NCBI GenBank assembly: GCA_026709725.1 | Contig: JAPOSK010000082.1 | Coordinates: forward strand, 1 to 6,498 | Direction: 5' to 3' | From: Paracoccaceae bacterium | GTDB taxonomy: Bacteria > Pseudomonadota > Alphaproteobacteria > Rhodobacterales > Rhodobacteraceae | DNA length: 6,498 bases | Part shown: in pieces, positions 3-6,498 of the stretch | Layout of the letters: every line of letters begins with the position of its first letter | How positions within the stretch are numbered: position 1 is the stretch's first letter | Position numbers and translations under genes: made by a program | The notes under the pieces: generated by a model | The model's input: only the letters and a program-made list of their open reading frames with translations | Told to the model about the DNA's origin: nothing | Databases searched by the model: none

Positions 3-71
3 CCACCGCCGCCGCCTCCGCCGCCACCGCCGCCGCCTCCGCCGCCACCGCCGCCACCGCCGCCACCGCCT
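3..71 (+). repeat. Polyproline tract 1 (at least 23 Pro, cut by window edge)
   Basis: All 23 codons are CCG, CCA or CCT. Two copies of a 21-bp unit (CCA CCG CCG CCG CCT CCG CCG) are followed by 9-bp CCA CCG CCG units. The tract continues beyond the left edge. Confidence 0.95.
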
Positions 72-1046
72 GTGGAGGAGTGTCAACCGACTTGTGGAAC
101 TTGGAGTCCGTTTGGGCCTTGGAGTGCCTGTGTAAATGGAACCCGATCGCAAACTAGAACCAGAAGGTGTGTTTACGATCCAGAGCCTGGGCAAGATTGT
201 CCACCTGACTATACAGAGACAGATACTCAAACGGAAAATTGCACGGCTCCGCCGCCTCCACCTCCGCCGCCACCACCGCCGCCACCACCTCCGCCACCGC
301 CACCGACATGCACTTATTCGGCGTGGGTAAATGACGGAGCGCCCTATAGTTGCGAAAACATAGGACGGGGAAGACAAGAATGTCTACAAGATCAAACCCG
401 AACCGTTCTAACAGGAACAAATTGTCCCGGGCCTTTGACCCAGACAATTTCAGTGTTCTCGGGAACTCCGCCTCCGCCTCCGCCGCCTCCGCCGCCACCG
501 CCGCCGCCTCCGCCGCCACCGCCGCCGCCTCCGCCGCCACCGCCGCCGCCTCCAACGTGTACAAGAGGCCCGTGGACAAACTCAGGCGCTCCGTATGGGT
601 ATTCTCCCGCAACAAGCACAGTGTGTTCTGGAGAAACGTTCACCCAGACTGGAAGTCAAGATCAGACACGAACTGTTTCTAGTGGCTGTCCTGCCAACAC
701 ACCAACAAGCAGGACGGTGAGGGTGACAAGATCAGCTACGGGCACAAGAAATTGCCCACCACCTCCGCCGCCACCGCCGCCACCGCCGCCACCGCCGCCT
801 CCGCCGCCACCGCCGCCTCCGCCGCCGCCTCCGACTTGCGTTACGGGCGCATGGGTTCTTGGTTCTCCTTACGATGTGGAAACCGGATTTGGACCTTGCA
901 TTAGGGGCATTCAAAGGCAAAACATACAAGTGCTGCGAGACGATACGCGCACCGTGACCCCCGCCGGATGCGCAGACAGCAGAAGAACCGTGCAAGTTAC
1001 CCGACGGGTGGAAACCAGAAGTTGCAGCGATGACGGATTGGATTAG
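3..1046 (+). CDS. Polyproline-rod protein with TSP1-like cysteine modules (5' partial)
   Basis: The frame is open from the window's left edge to the TAG at 1044-1046, so the N-terminus is missing. The GTG at 72 is not the start: the 23 codons before it (3-71) are all proline in the same frame. Layout: Pro rod (at least 23), module 1 (72-248), Pro19, module 2 (306-467), Pro29, module 3 (555-755), Pro26, module 4 (834-1043). Module 1 has the thrombospondin type 1 look: W-x5-WSAC, then TRTRRC, then spaced cysteines. Modules 2-4 share a C-x4-W opening and a D[QD]TRTV segment followed by a cysteine. Polyproline forms a stiff PPII helix, so a beads-on-rods extracellular or virion stalk is likely. 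Host EF-P would probably be needed to translate it. The function is inferred; a bacterial surface protein is the alternative. The reading frame is certain, the role is not. Confidence 0.88.
   Translation, partial: PPPPPPPPPPPPPPPPPPPPPPPVEECQPTCGTWSPFGPWSACVNGTRSQTRTRRCVYDPEPGQDCPPDYTETDTQTENCTAPPPPPPPPPPPPPPPPPPPTCTYSAWVNDGAPYSCENIGRGRQECLQDQTRTVLTGTNCPGPLTQTISVFSGTPPPPPPPPPPPPPPPPPPPPPPPPPPPPPTCTRGPWTNSGAPYGYSPATSTVCSGETFTQTGSQDQTRTVSSGCPANTPTSRTVRVTRSATGTRNCPPPPPPPPPPPPPPPPPPPPPPPPPPTCVTGAWVLGSPYDVETGFGPCIRGIQRQNIQVLRDDTRTVTPAGCADSRRTVQVTRRVETRSCSDDGLD
249..305 (+). repeat. Polyproline tract 2 (19 Pro)
   Basis: Nineteen proline codons lie between TSP1-like module 1 and module 2. The codon order is less regular than in the other tracts, which suggests an older or more diverged array. 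It contains no CCC codon. Confidence 0.95.
468..554 (+). repeat. Polyproline tract 3 (29 Pro, 21-bp period)
   Basis: Twenty-nine proline codons. From 486 the unit CCT CCG CCG CCA CCG CCG CCG is repeated three times exactly (CCT at 486, 507, 528 and 549), which indicates recent tandem expansion. It is the longest rod in the window. Confidence 0.95.
756..833 (+). repeat. Polyproline tract 4 (26 Pro, 9-bp period)
   Basis: Twenty-six proline codons, mostly as 9-bp CCG CCG CCA or CCG CCG CCT units. It separates cysteine modules 3 and 4 and contains no CCC codon. Confidence 0.95.
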
Positions 1047-1066
1047 ATTTGCAAATTGGTTATACT
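1038..1066 (+). promoter_or_regulatory. Candidate sigma70-type promoter
   Basis: TTGGAT (1038-1043, 4 of 6 to the -35 consensus) and TATACT (1061-1066, 5 of 6 to the -10 consensus) are separated by exactly 17 nt. The site overlaps the stop codon of the polyproline gene. Transcription would begin near 1073, leaving a short leader before the Shine-Dalgarno and ATG at 1108. It would drive the Ig-like, dioxygenase and glycosyltransferase-like genes. This is sequence match only. Confidence 0.45.
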
Positions 1067-1095
1067 AGATGTTAATTAAAAGTTGCCAACGCAAC

Positions 1096-1100
1096 AGGAG
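1096..1100 (+). promoter_or_regulatory. Ribosome binding site fixing the start at 1108
   Basis: AGGAG sits 7 nt before the ATG at 1108. The upstream in-frame ATG at 1069 has no such site and overlaps the predicted transcription start zone, so 1108 is preferred. Confidence 0.8.
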
Positions 1101-1107
1101 ACCAAAA

Positions 1108-1647
1108 ATGATTCAAATTGAAGAAGGCAATTATGTTTATTGGAGGCATCGTCCTTCGGCGGATGTTGTAACATCAAACGATGTTGCAATTTGCACAGTG
1201 GAAGATGTGCCAGAATCAAGCGCGGATCATAGCGAGGGATTGCGCATATTGCGAGGCGTTTCTTCCGGAAAAACCACTCTCACCTTAGCGTTTAACAACA
1301 ACGACCCCGACGTTGTTATAGATGTTGTTATCGAAAGCCAAAGGGATCAACAATTGATTCTTCCCACTATTCAAATTAACGGACCAACCACATTGCAGGT
1401 CGGAGAGACGGGCAATTATACCTGTCAAGTTGTGGGAGGACGTTACACCAGTGTTATTCTCTATAACTGGAGTTGTTTGGGAACAGGTCAGAGTGGACCC
1501 AGCGCCAGTGTGGATACAACAGGACGAAGAGAAGGCACGTATCAGCTTTGTTGCACTGTTCAACTGCAATTAGATATTGAGGGAGAATTGCCAATTATAA
1601 GAAGCACAGCCGGAAGCGTTCTTGTTTTAATTGAGGAACCCGATTGA
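1108..1647 (+). CDS. Ig-like domain protein, probable virion or surface accessory
   Basis: 179 aa from the ATG with the strong Shine-Dalgarno. Two beta-rich parts are visible. Residues about 1-77 resemble a bacterial Ig-like (BIG2-type) fold, with an LRILRGVSSGKTTLTL segment like the usual 'G..sG.atit' turn. Residues about 86-177 look like a second Ig/PKD-type domain: PTIQINGPTTLQVGETGNYTC, then W121, then GTYQLCC, giving the classic C...W...Y/C core with Cys106 and Cys148/149 positioned for a possible B-F disulfide. There is no signal peptide or membrane segment. The stop overlaps the next start by one base, implying translational coupling to the dioxygenase gene. Ig-like domains often decorate phage particles and aid surface binding. 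That role is inferred from the family, not shown here. Confidence 0.85.
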   Translation: MIQIEEGNYVYWRHRPSADVVTSNDVAICTVEDVPESSADHSEGLRILRGVSSGKTTLTLAFNNNDPDVVIDVVIESQRDQQLILPTIQINGPTTLQVGETGNYTCQVVGGRYTSVILYNWSCLGTGQSGPSASVDTTGRREGTYQLCCTVQLQLDIEGELPIIRSTAGSVLVLIEEPD

Positions 1648-2756
1648 TGGCTATTGACTTACTCAAAATATCTGACTCTTGCGGTTGGCATATCGAAACC
1701 GGAACACAAAAGCGGGAGTGGTTAAACAATCACGCCTACAAATGCGGGCCGATATTGGATGCCAACAAATCCTGTCTCAACATGGTGCTGGATGAAGATA
1801 TTGTGTGTGAGTGGAATGGAGGCCCCAATCAGAACGATGCAAAAGTCCTGCAAGGGCCAGCCGATGCCAAGTTTGGCGTTGGAACAATTACCCTTCATCA
1901 ATCCTGGATTTGGAAAACCACTATCGACAAAGCCATCTTGCTGGGACCGCCCCCCAACCACGATGAGGTGGATTGGCGGATGATGGATGCCTGGGTTGAT
2001 TCCCACAAGTTGAATTATCCTTGGTTCCCAACCATACGCCTGCTCAAGCCGGGGAAACACACTATTCCCAAAGGCTCAGTGATAGGCGCAATTCGCGAAG
2101 TGTCCCCCCATTCCGCCCCGCCCTACTTTCTTGAAAAAAAAGCGGATGAGATCACTTCTCAACGCCACAAAAGGCTGGGGGCGAATCGAACCTCGGGAAG
2201 GGGCGCACCTGGATTCGTATGGCGCAAGCAAGCCCGCCGCCATGCAAATCTGGAACGCACGGGTGTTTGGCTTGATGTTTTGCAGGGCGACAAATGGCTG
2301 GAAAGGGATGAATGTGAAAACCTGATAAAGGGTTTTACCGACACAAACACGCAATGGCGGGAAAATGTTGAGGTTTGGTGGCCGGATAAAACCAAATACA
2401 GTTATCTTGCGGAAGCGTTTGACGATATTGGACTGGCTATCGAATCTGTTACGGGCATACCAGTTCAAATTGATAACCCCCATGTGGTCAGATGGAAGCC
2501 CGGCTCTTTTATGCCATTGCATATTGATATAGATGGGGGATATGAGCAACGTCAATGGGGCAGTTTGATATATCTAAACACCACTAAATCAGGAGGATTG
2601 ACAATCGTGCCAAGCAGAGAAATAGAGTCAACCCCGTTTATGGGCAGAATGATGGCGTGGCCCGCCGGAACAACGCCCCACAGCGTTACCGAAGTTGAAC
2701 AAGACCGCTACACCGCCATTTGCTGGTGGGGGGCAAAACCCGTTAAGGTGAAATGA
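1647..2756 (+). CDS. DUF6065-like / 2OG-Fe(II) dioxygenase (prolyl-4-hydroxylase-like) fusion
   Basis: 369 aa from the ATG at 1647. The TTG one codon earlier is the weaker start; GAGGA at 1633-1637 lies 9 nt before the ATG. Residues about 1-155 resemble DUF6065 proteins: a CEWNGGPN segment (54-61), KFGVGTITLH (75-84), a GPPP turn (100-103) and a late beta stretch. A basic linker (about 164-205) follows. Residues about 205-363 form a double-stranded beta-helix dioxygenase: RWKPGSFMPLHID gives the HxD iron ligands His292 and Asp294, then SLIYLNTTKSGGLTIVP, then the distal His345, and Arg354 nine residues later for 2-oxoglutarate. The distal-His-to-Arg spacing equals that of prolyl hydroxylases. 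All catalytic residues are present. The substrate is unknown; the neighbouring polyproline protein is a candidate. Confidence 0.88.
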   Translation: MAIDLLKISDSCGWHIETGTQKREWLNNHAYKCGPILDANKSCLNMVLDEDIVCEWNGGPNQNDAKVLQGPADAKFGVGTITLHQSWIWKTTIDKAILLGPPPNHDEVDWRMMDAWVDSHKLNYPWFPTIRLLKPGKHTIPKGSVIGAIREVSPHSAPPYFLEKKADEITSQRHKRLGANRTSGRGAPGFVWRKQARRHANLERTGVWLDVLQGDKWLERDECENLIKGFTDTNTQWRENVEVWWPDKTKYSYLAEAFDDIGLAIESVTGIPVQIDNPHVVRWKPGSFMPLHIDIDGGYEQRQWGSLIYLNTTKSGGLTIVPSREIESTPFMGRMMAWPAGTTPHSVTEVEQDRYTAICWWGAKPVKVK

Positions 2757-2757
2757 A

Positions 2758-3462
2758 ATGATTAAGTACACGAACTATCTTAGTCCTTTTCATCATGAGT
2801 TTAATAACCTAGCTCCTGGAACAGTGCTATCGGCCATTGATTTGGGAATGGAAGTGATAATAGACTGCCACCCTGACTTTCATATTCCCAGCCATATTAG
2901 GTCATTGCGGGGCTTAACCATACGCCCTCGAAAAATTGAAGATTATTCTAGCGTTACCACAAACTTCACTATTCCACGGTTTCTTGAGTTACCCGCCTTG
3001 TTGCGGGAGCATGGTGATGTTTTGCTAACCGATTTTGATACGGTGCTGCGTTGTGTGCCGCCCAAGGAAAACAGGCTTGTGTTTTGGAATAACAGCAATT
3101 TCGATGAAGATCCGAGATGCAATTTGAGCACATGGGAAGGCGAGGGCCATAGAATTATGGCGAATCATGTTTCAATGGTGGGCAAGGTGGGTTTGGCTTT
3201 TGCGGAAGCGGTTGTTGAAACCATACACGAAATGCCGCGGAGGGACAGGGATAGGTGGTATTCCGATCAAGTCGCCTTGTGGCGGGCTTGGGCAAACAAG
3301 GGGCCGTGGCCGGACATTCACCACCAGCCAAATGCTTACTTCGGATTGGAGTTCAAAGACCGCCCCGGTGTGCCTTTGACGCATCCCAGAACTCACCAAG
3401 AGAAACATGGGGGGCCGTGGGTTGAATACACCCGCGAGTATCAAGATCGCTGGCACAGATAG
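2758..3462 (+). CDS. Putative GT-A-like glycosyltransferase with DXD motif
   Basis: 234 aa. AAGGTG (2745-2750) precedes the ATG by 7 nt, and the gene starts one base after the dioxygenase stop, so the two are almost certainly co-translated. The N-terminal half reads as an alpha/beta domain: TVLSAIDLGMEVIIDCH (22-38), then DVLLTDFDTVLRCVP (87-101), a hydrophobic strand ending in the DFD motif at 92-94, as in nucleotide-sugar GT-A enzymes that bind a metal through DXD. WYSDQVALW (167-175) resembles the downstream 'D-Q' segment seen in many such enzymes, and several histidines lie near the C-terminus (H209, H213, H217). It is short for a complete GT-A enzyme but within the range of small ones. 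There is no membrane anchor. The family call rests on motifs alone; an unrelated DXD-bearing fold is possible. Confidence 0.7.
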   Translation: MIKYTNYLSPFHHEFNNLAPGTVLSAIDLGMEVIIDCHPDFHIPSHIRSLRGLTIRPRKIEDYSSVTTNFTIPRFLELPALLREHGDVLLTDFDTVLRCVPPKENRLVFWNNSNFDEDPRCNLSTWEGEGHRIMANHVSMVGKVGLAFAEAVVETIHEMPRRDRDRWYSDQVALWRAWANKGPWPDIHHQPNAYFGLEFKDRPGVPLTHPRTHQEKHGGPWVEYTREYQDRWHR

Positions 3463-3465
3463 CCC

Positions 3466-3476
3466 AACCCTTTGAT
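3466..3476 (+). repeat. 11-bp direct repeat, copy 1 (AACCCTTTGAT)
   Basis: It lies just after the stop of the glycosyltransferase-like gene and just before the AAGGAG ribosome site of the next gene. An identical 11-mer occurs at 3841-3851, also at a gene end. Its function is unknown. Confidence 0.6.
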
Positions 3477-3488
3477 AAGGAGTTTATC

Positions 3489-3842
3489 ATGAGCACACAC
3501 AGAACAGACGCGGGCAGCATAACCCCCCCCCCCTTATCCCGCCCAACGCACTGGTTAAAATGGACCGATGCCCGTGGCGGCGAGTTTGAATTGCAACGGA
3601 TTAACTACAACCAAGCGCCCGATCGCTGGTACGAGGTGGTTTGCAACGGGCATCATCCGTGGGAGATTCGCTGCCACCTATCACACAGACAGGGAGTAAG
3701 CGATTTGCAATGGCAAAGCCGCGCAAGCGGCGGACAGTGGAGGGCTTTAACCCAATCAAATGAAATCTTTGGGGTGAACACGAGCACTCTCGGTTTGCTC
3801 TCACTGCCCCCAAATACGGAGTATCGCTTGGTTGTAAGCTAA
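3489..3842 (+). CDS. Small hypothetical protein with a poly-C tract near its start
   Basis: 117 aa. AAGGAG (3477-3482) lies 6 nt before the ATG, so the gene is well supported although I do not recognise it. It has many Trp, His and Arg residues (HWLKW, DRWYEVVCNGHHPWEIRCH, LQWQSRASGGQWRAL) and ends in SLPPNTEYRLVVS, which looks like the last strands of a fibronectin type III-like fold (L-x-P-x-T-x-Y). The two cysteines, at 52 and 62, could pair. There is no signal peptide or membrane helix. Codons 12-15 (Thr-Pro-Pro-Pro) are read through an 11-C homopolymer. One C fewer or more would end translation after about 22 or 33 residues, so expression could be switched by slippage. The Fn3 resemblance is weak; a role as a small virion accessory is inference. 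Confidence 0.75.
   Translation: MSTHRTDAGSITPPPLSRPTHWLKWTDARGGEFELQRINYNQAPDRWYEVVCNGHHPWEIRCHLSHRQGVSDLQWQSRASGGQWRALTQSNEIFGVNTSTLGLLSLPPNTEYRLVVS
3523..3533 (+). repeat. C11 homopolymer inside a coding region
   Basis: Eleven consecutive C bases span codons 12-15 of the small protein gene. With 10 C the frame reaches TAA at 3556-3558; with 12 C it reaches TGA at 3587-3589. Tracts of this kind are typical of slipped-strand phase variation but are also prone to sequencing error. Confidence 0.9.
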
Positions 3843-3851
3843 CCCTTTGAT
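3841..3851 (+). repeat. 11-bp direct repeat, copy 2 (AACCCTTTGAT)
   Basis: It is identical to 3466-3476 and overlaps the stop codon of the small protein gene (TAA 3840-3842). Both copies sit at gene ends. Confidence 0.6.
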
Positions 3852-3975
3852 TTCAAATCGCTTTTTCTCCCCACAACTTTTTTTTGCAAAAATCGCTTGC
3901 ATCGAAATCCCGTCCGCGTTAGGCTAAAGCCAACTTCACTCTTTCAGTGCGCATTGCGCTCGGGGATCGCAAGTT
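3843..3975. other. Intergenic gap, composition boundary, no clear promoter or terminator
   Basis: This is the longest non-coding stretch in the window. It holds pyrimidine-rich runs (a T8 run at 3878-3885), a perfect 12-nt palindrome TTTTTGCAAAAA (3881-3892) and an 11-nt palindrome GCGCATTGCGC (3949-3959). The best promoter-like pair, TTGCAT (3897-3902) with TAGGCT (3920-3925) at 17 nt, matches only 3 of 6 in each box. No GC-rich hairpin precedes a T run, so there is no convincing intrinsic terminator. Genes before the gap look AT-richer than those after it. Confidence 0.5.
3949..3959. promoter_or_regulatory. Short palindrome upstream of the Ig-like gene
   Basis: GCGCA-T-TGCGC is a perfect 11-nt inverted repeat ending 16 nt before the ATG at 3976. 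It could be a protein-binding site or a small RNA hairpin affecting that start, or it could be chance. Confidence 0.25.
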
Positions 3976-4614
3976 ATGAGCCGCTCGAATTGGACACCGG
4001 GGATTGAGACAACAGCCCACCCGATTCGCTTGCTAAGCGCGGCCATCCCCGCGGGCGGGCAGGCCCTTTTGGACATTCGCTCCTGCGGATGGAGCGCCCA
4101 TGCCCCGGGATGGACCCTGACCACCGACGACAGCGCAACCGCCACCCTGTTCGGCAGCAATGTCGAATCCCCCGGAGATGATGATTGGATTCCAAGCGCA
4201 ACCAACGACACCGTAAAGCCGGGAGAACAAATTCAAGACGTTGAGGCAGGCCCCGTTGCCTGGCTGCGCTTTGCCAGCGAGGGCGGCGTGTCAACGCTCA
4301 ATTTTGCGTACCTGGGCGATGTTAAAAGCTACCTGTCAAACGTCGGTCCGGTTTTATCGCTAACAGAAAGCGCGTTGTCCATCCCAAATGACATACCGTA
4401 CGATCTGTCAGTGCATGACTTCCTCGACAGCGACCAAGCGAATTTAGTCTTTGCAATCTCAACAAGCGATAGCGGCGTGTTTACCGTTCTGACGATCGGC
4501 GACACCACAACCATCACCCCAAGAAATCCGGGAACCGCGAACCTGCTAATCCTGGGAACAAACATCGCGGGCGGTTCAACGTCTGTGCAAATTGAAGTAA
4601 CGGTTGAGGCTTAG
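3976..4614 (+). CDS. Ig-like domain protein, probable virion structural protein
   Basis: 212 aa. The ATG at 3976 is the only reasonable start: no start codon lies between it and the in-frame stop at 3925. The ribosome site is weak (GGGGA at 3962-3966, 9 nt away). Residues 1-120 are an unrecognised beta-rich part (LSAAIPAGGQALLDIRSCGW, then TTDDSATATLFG, then an EAGPVAWLRFASEGG stretch). Residues about 126-212 look like a complete Ig/cadherin-like domain: VLSLTESALSIPND, PYDLSVHDFLDSDQANL, VFTVLTIGDTTTITPRNPGT, ending QIEVTVEA. This matches the general bacterial pattern in which a 'D-x-D' turn, a 'sVftv' strand and an 'itp...GtA' strand are followed by a final strand. It is followed two bases later by the large repeat protein gene, so the two are probably co-expressed. 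Its role as a decoration or attachment protein is inferred. Confidence 0.83.
   Translation: MSRSNWTPGIETTAHPIRLLSAAIPAGGQALLDIRSCGWSAHAPGWTLTTDDSATATLFGSNVESPGDDDWIPSATNDTVKPGEQIQDVEAGPVAWLRFASEGGVSTLNFAYLGDVKSYLSNVGPVLSLTESALSIPNDIPYDLSVHDFLDSDQANLVFAISTSDSGVFTVLTIGDTTTITPRNPGTANLLILGTNIAGGSTSVQIEVTVEA
4606..4609 (+). promoter_or_regulatory. Ribosome binding site for the large repeat protein
   Basis: GAGG lies 7 nt before the ATG at 4617, inside the last codons of the preceding gene. It supports 4617 as the start of a frame with no visible stop. Confidence 0.7.
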
Positions 4615-4616
4615 CG

Positions 4617-6498
4617 ATGTCTTTTTATCCCAGACGAGACGGGGCCGGAAGCGGCATTGGATCCGGCGCTTTCGGCGGTCTCCTAAAGCAGGCAAACAGC
4701 GATTGCGGCTTGTTCCTGTACACCCGGGACTCCAATCCCTCCTGGCACCTTCGCGGTGTTCTGCGGCGGGCGGATGAGCCCGTCTCCATCACCGTTGTTG
4801 GGGATGATGACGACCTGCCGGAAGGTTCTGATAAGTACATTGAAGTTCGCTACGATCCAGCAGTAGATACGCAGCAGGACATTGTGGATGCGGGCGAGGC
4901 TAACAGGGATGTTGAGGTCGGTTGGCTCTATGGAACCGACTTAGCTGAGCCTTCTGAGCCCACGGGCTTTGACTACCGCAAGTTCTATCCAGAAGGCGGT
5001 GGTTCCGGTGTTTTTGGGGCGGTCATCTCCCAGGCCACATCGGACGTTCCGGCTATCCCCGCCGTTCCCCGCCGCACTGATCCTGTTCAACCCATACCCC
5101 CTGACGCAGCTTCGGATTCCTGGGACAGGTCTTTTGGAGCCACCCTGCCGGGGGAAGGGGCGACCGTCCGGTTGCAAGACACGAACAACGTCGATATTGT
5201 TATCGTTACTTTTGATTCTGGCGTTGAGAATAACGGCGCAACGGTTAGGGTTCAGGGAGATTCCAGCGCAAGCGGCTACGATGCTGAAACACAGACTCTC
5301 ACCATCCCCAGCGGCACCACCCGCGATGATGCCATATTTTTTGTTAACAGCCTTAATGGGTTTCCCGGCCGGGCTACCCATGTTCCAAACACGTTCAGCA
5401 CCGGCTTGAGAAACCAGTCCCGCACATCCGCTGGCGGAACTGACGATCGCTACTTCTCCCAGGTCATTGTTATAAACAACCTCGGCGTTGGTGAAGACAG
5501 CAACATCAGCATCGTGACGGCTCCGGCTGACAGCACAAACGCCGCTTTCACTGTGGATTGGGATGCCGACAACCGGGTGCTGACGCTGTACTTTTCTACT
5601 GATCCCGTGGGCCAGTTTGACCTGCAAACCGTTGCGGCGAACATCTTGGCCGTGCTTCCGACCATCGGAATTATCGGCGGTGGCGACGGCGACGACACGA
5701 CCGCCATCACCCACGCCGGCTTGGTTTACGCAACTGGCCAGCGCATTGATTTCACTGGCGGGCGGGATGCTGAAACCGTCTTTGCCGCTGAAGATCGTGG
5801 CTTGTTTGTCTATACCAATGACAGCACCCCCGAGTGGAACTTGCGGTTGCGGGAGCGTCAGATTGAGGTTTTGGCGGTTCGCGCGGGCCTAACCTTTTCC
5901 GGAAGCGGGGATGCCGGCCTTCGCCTTCAATTTGGAGATACCGACCGCAACGACCGGCGCACCCAAATTGTGGGAACCAGCGACTATGCGGAGCCGCGGG
6001 GCATAAGCGACAACTGGTCTCTGGCCTACAACGAAGTTGACGATTGGCGCGGGGCCAAAGCCCGATACGCCGTTGGCTCAACCGTTGTTTTCTCGGCAAG
6101 TGATATTGGTGTCGCCGGCAACGCCCATTCAGTTCGCTTGGTAGAGGGCGGCGGGGCCGTGGCCGGGGTTGCGGCAACCCTTGATTGGCAGAACACCCGT
6201 TTCTCCGCAGCCGGTGTGGGCGCAATCGGCAATGCCCTGGATGTGCTGGTGACCGAGGGAACTCCGGCAACATCAGGAGTAACCGCGATTGCCTCCATAG
6301 CCTCTCTTGTTGATGGGGGCACCCGCCTTGTTGAAATTGAGTTTCCCACCACCGACGCTGCCGACTTTAACGGGCAGCGCGTTCAAGTGGGTGCGCCTAG
6401 AACCGGACCGGGCACGGCGGCTTCTGCATCAATTACAGTCGGTAGCAGAGTGTTTACTTTTACCGCCGTGGACGCGGGTGCTGCGGGCAATGATATTG
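4617..6498 (+). CDS. Large modular beta-repeat protein, probable phage fibre/appendage (3' partial)
   Basis: The frame stays open for 627 complete codons from the ATG at 4617 to the window edge, so the C-terminus is missing. Layout by residue: Gly-rich start (9-21); head segment 1 (about 18-100) containing GLFLYTRDSNPSWHLR at 31-46; a loop and proline-rich hinge (about 144-162, VPAIPAVPRRTDPVQPIPP); beta modules A (about 192-250) and B (about 280-350); head segment 2 (about 382-463) containing GLFVYTNDSTPEWNLR at 395-410; then beta modules C (about 487-560) and D (from about 605). Modules B-D carry variants of a G-[VA]-[GAI]-x-[GD]-[NS] turn such as GVAGN and GAAGN, a pattern I associate with repeat modules of phage tail and fibre proteins. 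There is no signal peptide. A bacterial adhesin is an alternative. The gene is certain; the role is inferred. Confidence 0.85.
   Translation, partial: MSFYPRRDGAGSGIGSGAFGGLLKQANSDCGLFLYTRDSNPSWHLRGVLRRADEPVSITVVGDDDDLPEGSDKYIEVRYDPAVDTQQDIVDAGEANRDVEVGWLYGTDLAEPSEPTGFDYRKFYPEGGGSGVFGAVISQATSDVPAIPAVPRRTDPVQPIPPDAASDSWDRSFGATLPGEGATVRLQDTNNVDIVIVTFDSGVENNGATVRVQGDSSASGYDAETQTLTIPSGTTRDDAIFFVNSLNGFPGRATHVPNTFSTGLRNQSRTSAGGTDDRYFSQVIVINNLGVGEDSNISIVTAPADSTNAAFTVDWDADNRVLTLYFSTDPVGQFDLQTVAANILAVLPTIGIIGGGDGDDTTAITHAGLVYATGQRIDFTGGRDAETVFAAEDRGLFVYTNDSTPEWNLRLRERQIEVLAVRAGLTFSGSGDAGLRLQFGDTDRNDRRTQIVGTSDYAEPRGISDNWSLAYNEVDDWRGAKARYAVGSTVVFSASDIGVAGNAHSVRLVEGGGAVAGVAATLDWQNTRFSAAGVGAIGNALDVLVTEGTPATSGVTAIASIASLVDGGTRLVEIEFPTTDAADFNGQRVQVGAPRTGPGTAASASITVGSRVFTFTAVDAGAAGNDI
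4707..4754 (+). repeat. Internal protein repeat, head motif copy 1
   Basis: It encodes GLFLYTRDSNPSWHLR (residues 31-46). It matches copy 2 at 5799-5846 at 11 of 16 positions, with weaker similarity continuing downstream (KYIEVRYD versus AGLRLQFG). Confidence 0.75.
5190..5366 (+). repeat. Beta module A
   Basis: It encodes residues 192-250. The order is a hydrophobic strand (VDIVIVTFDSG), GATVRVQG, then DAETQTLTIPSGTTRDDAIF. The last part parallels DADNRVLTLYFSTD in module B, so the two look like diverged copies. Confidence 0.5.
5454..5666 (+). repeat. Beta module B
   Basis: It encodes residues 280-350: QVIVINNLGVGEDSNISIV, then DADNRVLTLYFSTD, then a helix-like DLQTVAANILAVL. The order (strand, G-x-x-x-[NS] turn, strand, strand, helix) is that of module A. 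Confidence 0.5.
5799..5846 (+). repeat. Internal protein repeat, head motif copy 2
   Basis: It encodes GLFVYTNDSTPEWNLR (residues 395-410), 364 residues after copy 1. The DNA has diverged more than the protein, suggesting an old duplication kept by selection. Confidence 0.75.
6075..6296 (+). repeat. Beta module C
   Basis: It encodes residues 487-560. It has two Gly-Asn turns, GVAGNAHSVRLVEG and GAIGNALDVLVTEG, 37 residues apart, which may themselves be a half-module duplication. Confidence 0.5.
6429..6498 (+). repeat. Beta module D (cut by window edge)
   Basis: It encodes residues 605-627: SITVGSRVFTFTAVDAGAAG, then NDI. It opens like module C and is cut right after the Gly-Asn turn, so more modules probably follow. 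Confidence 0.5.

Follow-up and report, generated by a model that had tools for sequence, protein, structure and literature searches.

The closest described systems to the locus considered here, in which a gene for a polyproline protein (gene 1) lies near a gene joining a DUF6065 domain to a 2-oxoglutarate (2OG)-Fe(II) oxygenase (gene 3) on the 6498-bp contig JAPOSK010000082.1 (hereafter the window; it is the entire contig C138 of a 3.15-Mb bin of 634 contigs), are the prolyl 4-hydroxylase (P4H) of the chlorovirus PBCV-1, the plant extensin pathway, the modification of Skp1, and the Pseudomonas enzyme PPHD. The PBCV-1 P4H is collagen-type, and we know of no DUF6065 domain and no tail-fibre gene paired with it. 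Its likeness to our locus is that the prolyl hydroxylase is encoded by a virus; the difference is the algal host. PBCV-1 encodes the enzyme itself and hydroxyproline has been reported in viral proteins (Eriksson et al. 1999, cited in PMC9301287), vCPH is given as structure 5C5T in PMC7864055, and the viral use of P4H "remains cryptic" in the words of PMC9301287. In the plant extensin pathway, as described in PMC4132260, P4H acts first and is followed by the arabinosyltransferases HPAT1-3, RRA1-3 and XEG113, HPAT being placed under GT8 (extensins are defined in PMC4769139). A proline-rich protein, a 2OG hydroxylase and glycosyltransferases make up the likeness to our locus, whereas the window differs in its pure Pro rods lacking Ser-Pro3-5, its Arg-type enzyme and its compact, viral layout. 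The plant extensin P4H is Lys-type. Skp1 undergoes PHD-type prolyl hydroxylation and then glycosylation, with a glycogenin-like GT8 enzyme in Toxoplasma. The Skp1 prolyl hydroxylase of Dictyostelium and Toxoplasma is named PhyA in PMC7864055. Its substrate is a folded eukaryotic protein, whereas the phage cassettes described below have rods of 13-45 prolines, and on our analysis the extensin and Skp1 paths are working precedents, not families that hold this system. PPHD (4IW3/4J25), which PMC7864055 gives as an EF-Tu prolyl hydroxylase of Pseudomonas (4iw3), is the best Protein Data Bank (PDB) sequence match to gene 3 and shares its HxD...H with Arg at +9; it acts on EF-Tu, and its 229-residue chain has no DUF6065 match, the similarity covering the 2OG part only.

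Among phages, the 2OG oxygenases of marine T4-like phages (phrog_2297, phrog_61) are matched by profile, and the S-RIM50 gene lies near tail fibres with neighbours that are not proline-rich; the functions of phage 2OG oxygenases "have not been specifically investigated" according to PMC9602691. The collagen-like tail proteins of E. coli prophages, as PMC3368898 presents them, are similar in being proline-rich, extended structures and differ in having collagen-type repeats, not pure Pro. Our literature searches, which covered open-licence papers, returned no phage polyproline protein with a linked hydroxylase among the matches listed, and no use of the term DUF6065.

Our analysis leans towards the reading that the window covers part of what is likely a phage tail-fibre locus; the DUF6065-2OG oxygenase is predicted to hydroxylate the polyproline rods there, and a neighbouring enzyme would probably add sugar. 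The original prediction was that three genes of the window make a hydroxylated, glycosylated rod protein. What has held up is the link of polyproline to DUF6065-2OG genes, which we found in phage contigs; the identity of gene 4 as a glycosyltransferase, and a promoter proposed between the rod gene and the enzyme genes, have not. Since a polyproline gene near a predicted hydroxylase recurs in other phage DNA, it seems likely that these phages hydroxylate their polyproline fibres, to which they may afterwards attach sugar, in a manner resembling that of plants.

Gene 1 (3..1046), like all window genes described here on the + strand, is truncated at its 5' end by the contig edge and has an open frame of 347 codons. 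It encodes rods of 23, 19, 29 and 26 residues (nt 3-71, 249-305, 468-554 and 756-833), all pure Pro, which confirms the four rods and 97 prolines read earlier; the whole protein has 115. The rods are written in CCG (59), CCA (22) and CCT (16) codons, with tandem repeats of the CCG/CCA type, and alternate with four modules of 54-70 residues and 4-6 Cys each, the first being weakly TSP1-like (PF00090, E 0.0019, 18.8 bits, under the cut-off of 21.6). Extensin-type Ser-Pro3-5 repeats were not found in gene 1, where A, T, C and V flank the rods, and with its rods masked the protein gave no BLAST match to the rod proteins of the other cassettes. Next comes gene 2 (1108..1647), a small open reading frame (ORF) of 179-192 codons, which starts at ATG 1108, after AGGAG, or at ATG 1069, where the frame opens; its stop overlaps the start of gene 3, and it has a weak match to phrog_1149 (Hoc-like head decoration, E 0.001). 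The earlier gene map had placed the rod gene, the enzyme and gene 4 one base further on correctly, and had overlooked gene 2 and the DUF6065 domain. Its candidate promoter between rod gene and enzymes was rejected, as positions 900-4100 hold 2 promoter-like sites, fewer than the 4.1 expected from shuffled sequence.

In the protein of gene 3 (1647..2756), DUF6065 forms the N-terminal part (PF19541, E 3.4e-12, 46.8 bits vs a cut-off of 26.6; nt 1683-2024 match profile positions 10-132 of 236), and the 2OG-Fe(II) oxygenase to which it is fused forms the C-terminal part (matched at about 2481-2729). When the C-terminal piece 2295-2753 was scanned alone it matched PF13640 with 41.3 bits (cut-off 27); this family was absent from the matches at E<=1 when the whole protein was scanned. 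The complete HxD...H...R set that had been noted is there, with H292-x-D294 and H345 as iron ligands and R354 as the basic residue, all identical in the homologues P0002 and P0003, in which DUF6065 and 2OG are likewise fused. The protein matches the phage 2OG families phrog_2297 and phrog_61. Searched against the PDB, the single sequence matched 4iw3 only (E 0.002), and the alignment brought five chains at E <=10: 4iw3 (0.0012), the prolyl 4-hydroxylase 6iuq (0.14) and three EGLN1 chains (0.56-1.4). Collagen-, plant- and algal-type P4Hs carry Lys at +10 after the distal His. In gene 3, H345 is followed by Arg at +9, the same spacing as in 4iw3 and 6iuq in the alignments, and a collagen- or plant-type P4H identity was therefore rejected; the Arg is that of the PHD/PPHD type, with which the PDB matches are consistent but weak. 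Judged by these residues, the window oxygenase is Arg-type (PHD/PPHD-like), unlike the Lys-type majority of phage P4H-motif enzymes, 100 of the 119 examined having Lys at +10. The 33 2OG proteins from 27 representative DUF6065 loci read Arg at +10 in 25 cases and Lys in 3, with a few misread by the pattern. The earlier call of a prolyl-hydroxylase-like enzyme is thus borne out in that the PDB matches, few and mostly weak, are prolyl hydroxylases, and has to be amended in that the type is PHD/PPHD-like and not the Lys-type P4H.

The link between polyproline proteins and DUF6065-linked 2OG enzymes extends beyond this contig. We compared three scans of IMG/VR, made with (CCN)14, with the P4H motif YLNxxxxGGET and with an alignment of phage DUF6065 proteins; the first two sets consist of the first 120 stretches each among the matches listed, a scope that applies to all their counts below. 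The DUF6065 scan was seeded with the aligned DUF6065 proteins of L145 (from the (CCN)14 set) and L225 (from the P4H-motif set, its DUF6065 placed between two 2OG genes) and gave 51 loci, both seeds included. A 2OG gene was present in 119/120 P4H-motif loci and, by local hidden Markov model (HMM) searches, in 44/51 DUF6065 loci. Proline runs of at least 13 in an open frame occurred in 19/51 DUF6065 loci vs 0/120 P4H-motif loci (Fisher 6e-12), and runs of at least 8 in 19/51 vs 3/120 (Fisher 5e-9), the DNA compared being 679 kb and 1030 kb, respectively. After clustering at 80% identity the figures for runs of at least 13 were 11/28 vs 0/103 (7e-9, or 2e-8 once the seeds L145 and L225 are left out); these Fisher tests take loci or clusters as independent. 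The co-occurrence that the original prediction expected in related contigs was therefore seen for DUF6065-linked oxygenases (19/51) and not for ordinary phage P4H-motif genes (0/120). Enzymes lacking a proline-rich neighbour, named beforehand as grounds for refuting it, are found among phage 2OG genes generally and do not characterize the DUF6065-linked subfamily. The broader idea that any phage prolyl-hydroxylase-like gene accompanies polyproline was rejected on the same P4H-motif counts. Tblastn with two phage DUF6065 proteins found no match in 50,697 phage records, so that no isolate can be named.

The gene order of these cassettes is regular. The 2OG gene stands directly before DUF6065 in 34/51 loci, with gaps of -147 to +3 bp between the longest ORFs and an overlap in 32, and in L338 (8144-9514) the two are fused as 2OG-DUF6065, the order opposite to that of window 1647-2756; fusions in two opposite orders are a Rosetta-stone sign of joint action by DUF6065 and the oxygenase, which probably function as partners. 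In 8 of 28 clusters the gene immediately upstream of 2OG encodes the polyproline protein, at a distance of 5-48 bp in seven of them and of 186 bp in the other; a ninth cluster (L351) has it two genes upstream. It is downstream of 2OG in L145 and L309, about 4 kb away in the latter; the order in L145 is DUF6065, two genes that read as glycosyltransferase-like, a nucleotidyltransferase-like gene, 2OG and the start of the polyproline protein. The window itself belongs with these cassettes, its DUF6065 and 2OG being fused and polyproline gene 1 lying one gene away. Cassette rod proteins are between 93 residues (truncated at the edge of a contig) and 1795 residues long, with longest runs of 13 to 45 prolines and with modules that look Cys-rich or beta-rich between the rods. 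After rod masking, those of L309, L323, L325, L334 and L352 had no BLAST match to any other. As to setting, L354 has a collar/tail-fibre gene upstream (PF07484, E 5e-18) plus further tail-fibre-like genes. The independent siphovirus-like contig L004 carries genes for gpJ-like and minor tail proteins, with PTPP repeats at their ends, and after them a row of genes in which one is DUF6065-like (tblastn 2e-26 against the window, under the Pfam cut-off) and another is a clear 2OG gene (PF13640, E 4e-15); phrog_2954/phrog_3531 are matched by the DUF6065-like gene and by others of the row.

A FastTree phylogeny was built from the oxygenase domains of 6 named sequences, of 33 enzymes from the 27 representative loci and of 60 of the 119 P4H-motif enzymes. 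The window oxygenase fell in a 34-member clade (support 0.98), 29 members of which are cassette enzymes; among the 60 P4H-motif enzymes one joined this clade, and it may be that of L225, a locus present in both sets. Nearest to the window oxygenase were P0002 and P0003, then S-RIM50 gp219 (support 0.90). In phages, gene 3 matched S-RIM50 alone, with 30% identity over 39% in the 2OG part only, and it had no relatives in viral contigs, genome contigs or plasmids. Its alignment, run against 385 genomes of the class, matched in 39 including the window's own and gave no further full-length relative; against 394 genomes of the family it found the window alone. Genes 3 (P0001) and 4 (P0004) also occur on a 14,909-bp contig. 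The matches in the 38 other genomes of the class were to bacterial DUF6065-like or 2OG-like proteins, and 14 neighbourhoods taken from the class matches contained a single 2OG gene and nothing proline-rich. S-RIM50 gp219 (L169:8974-9444, phrog_2297) is itself a 2OG-Fe(II) oxygenase labelled "DNA endonuclease" in RefSeq and PHROGs, likely an annotation error that has spread.

Several points weigh against this reading of the locus or limit it. Only one PDB match of gene 3, 4iw3, is significant, AlphaFold2 models of genes 3 and 4 were too poor for a fold search (mean predicted local distance difference test scores, pLDDT, of 42 and 38), no profile backs a glycosyltransferase identity for gene 4, and the viral, genome, phage and plasmid collections yielded no locus related to window genes except the DUF6065-like L004. 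The P4H-motif control consists of 2OG loci, not tail-fibre loci, and a control scan with the reversed motif gave 4 stretches, too few to use. S-RIM50 gp219 adjoins other 2OG genes near tail fibres that have no proline-rich stretches, which speaks against polyproline as the only target. Polyproline is missing from the available DNA of 32/51 DUF6065 loci, some of them cut just upstream, and by local HMM a 2OG gene is present in 2 (L145 and L168) and absent in 118 of the 120 (CCN)14 loci, so that polyproline does not need this enzyme, and the notion that polyproline proteins generally come with a hydroxylase was rejected. These last counts, together with the fact that related 2OG genes adjoin tail-fibre genes in general, would fit an enzyme whose target lies elsewhere in the fibre or virion, for instance in a second tail protein or in the Ig or Cys-rich modules, with the rods as plain, unmodified spacers. 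We think this rather unlikely, as runs of at least 13 prolines occur in 19/51 cassette loci vs 0/120 controls, several adjacent rod proteins share polyproline and nothing else, and the sole significant PDB relative is a prolyl hydroxylase.

Shared ancestry of the clusters also counts against a functional link: at 60% identity there are 14 single-linkage clusters, 6 of them positive, and at 50% there are 3, with 1 positive. This shrinkage would be expected if a single phage lineage had by chance carried a polyproline fibre beside the gene pair and its descendants had merely inherited the synteny. Such an origin seems very improbable to us, because the rod proteins vary in modules and in length yet retain their rods, the rod gene of L145 and L309 is on the opposite side of 2OG, and the window adds a further, very distant case. 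A third alternative follows from PPHD, an EF-Tu prolyl hydroxylase by the account in PMC7864055, being the best PDB match: the enzyme might target a host protein such as EF-Tu, or a small molecule, as moron-type cargo beside fibre genes. Phage 2OG genes can be numerous cargo, 24 being counted in one cyanophage in PMC9602691; from cargo, however, so regular an association with polyproline neighbours or overlap with DUF6065 would not be expected, and we regard this explanation as improbable.

If the rods are indeed the substrate, they would form stiff polyproline-II spacers between receptor-binding modules, the Arg-type oxygenase would convert their prolines to hydroxyproline, DUF6065 may assist it as a substrate holder or as a second modifying domain, and glycosyltransferases would attach sugars to the new hydroxyls. 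More tentatively, it is possible that phages run a hydroxyproline-glycoprotein pathway of their own, a PHD-type oxygenase with DUF6065 hydroxylating the fibre rods and GT8-like or orphan glycosyltransferases coating them with sugar.

Glycosyltransferase-like genes were found in 28/51 DUF6065 loci, 14 of them GT8-like and 14 of another family. The GT8-like genes were present in 14/51 DUF6065 loci vs 0/120 in each of the two other sets, with a profile built from five of the 14 positive loci; run against the PDB, this profile hit glycogenin (E 6.5e-8), and all ten members keep the DXD motif. Members of the other family, the "SGQPRN" proteins (phrog_13607; e.g., L145:6547-8108), are glycosyltransferase-like on a reading of their sequences; they come straight after DUF6065 in 11/51 loci and stand at a greater distance from it in another 3. 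Gene 4 (2758..3462) starts one base after gene 3 and is an orphan with DFDTVL and SDQVALW motifs, by which it is a putative GT-A glycosyltransferase. The earlier description of it stands as to its position and its DXD motif (DFD at residues 92-94), and fails as to the glycosyltransferase call: no Pfam, NCBIfam or PDB match was found, the best PHROG was phrog_26055 at E 0.33, and hhalign against the GT8-like cassette family gave no match (0.2%). Gene 4 has a single relative, P0005 (62%), to which a third protein search added none, and no relatives were found in viral contigs, genome contigs, phages or plasmids. In L343 and L354 the polyproline tail gene has the hydroxylase-DUF6065-glycosyltransferase row downstream of it, and beyond this row lie Radical-SAM/SPASM genes (L343:17156-20714; L354:15700-16968), which hint at a larger fibre-modification cluster.

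The cassettes offer a concrete candidate substrate for one subgroup of phage 2OG oxygenases and a first functional context for DUF6065, to which they would, if the reading is true, give a first function. Bacterial viruses would then modify polyproline as plants and algae do and carry stiff, glycosylated, extensin-like fibres; this would matter for the way in which tail fibres get to receptors and stay attached, and for the origin of hydroxyproline-glycosylation enzymes.

Polyproline was also seen apart from the cassettes. An ORF of at least 100 residues with polyproline was present in 31/120 (CCN)14 loci, and these 31 ORFs of viral contigs have 2.4% Cys beside their runs vs 1.0% in all ORFs. 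Pure proline runs lie beside Cys-rich stretches in L049, L057, L078, L088, L098, L101, L130 and L165, where no 2OG gene was found in the available DNA.

The DNA fragment is probably viral in origin. The tetranucleotide profile of positions 1051-6498 correlates with that of the bin at 0.66, compared with 0.90-0.98 for 12 other contigs against the rest, which marks the contig as foreign to the bin; this foreign composition, the Hoc-like match of gene 2 and the matches to phage 2OG families together point to a phage. No hallmark capsid or terminase gene was found in the window. In phage searches genes 1 and 2 had no relatives, nor did gene 7 in viral contigs and phages. Downstream of gene 4 lie gene 5 (3489..3842) and gene 6 (3976..4614), and gene 7 (4617..6497), a large protein cut at the contig end; profile searches with the three gave no significant family match. 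Gene 7 has a 34% identical relative on contig C376 of the same bin, which is also odd in composition (tetranucleotide correlation 0.71). This relative (L308, G000:C376, 2327-3355) lies behind a 538-residue protein with no family match, and the GC content of C376 is 61% vs 53% for window positions 1051-6498.

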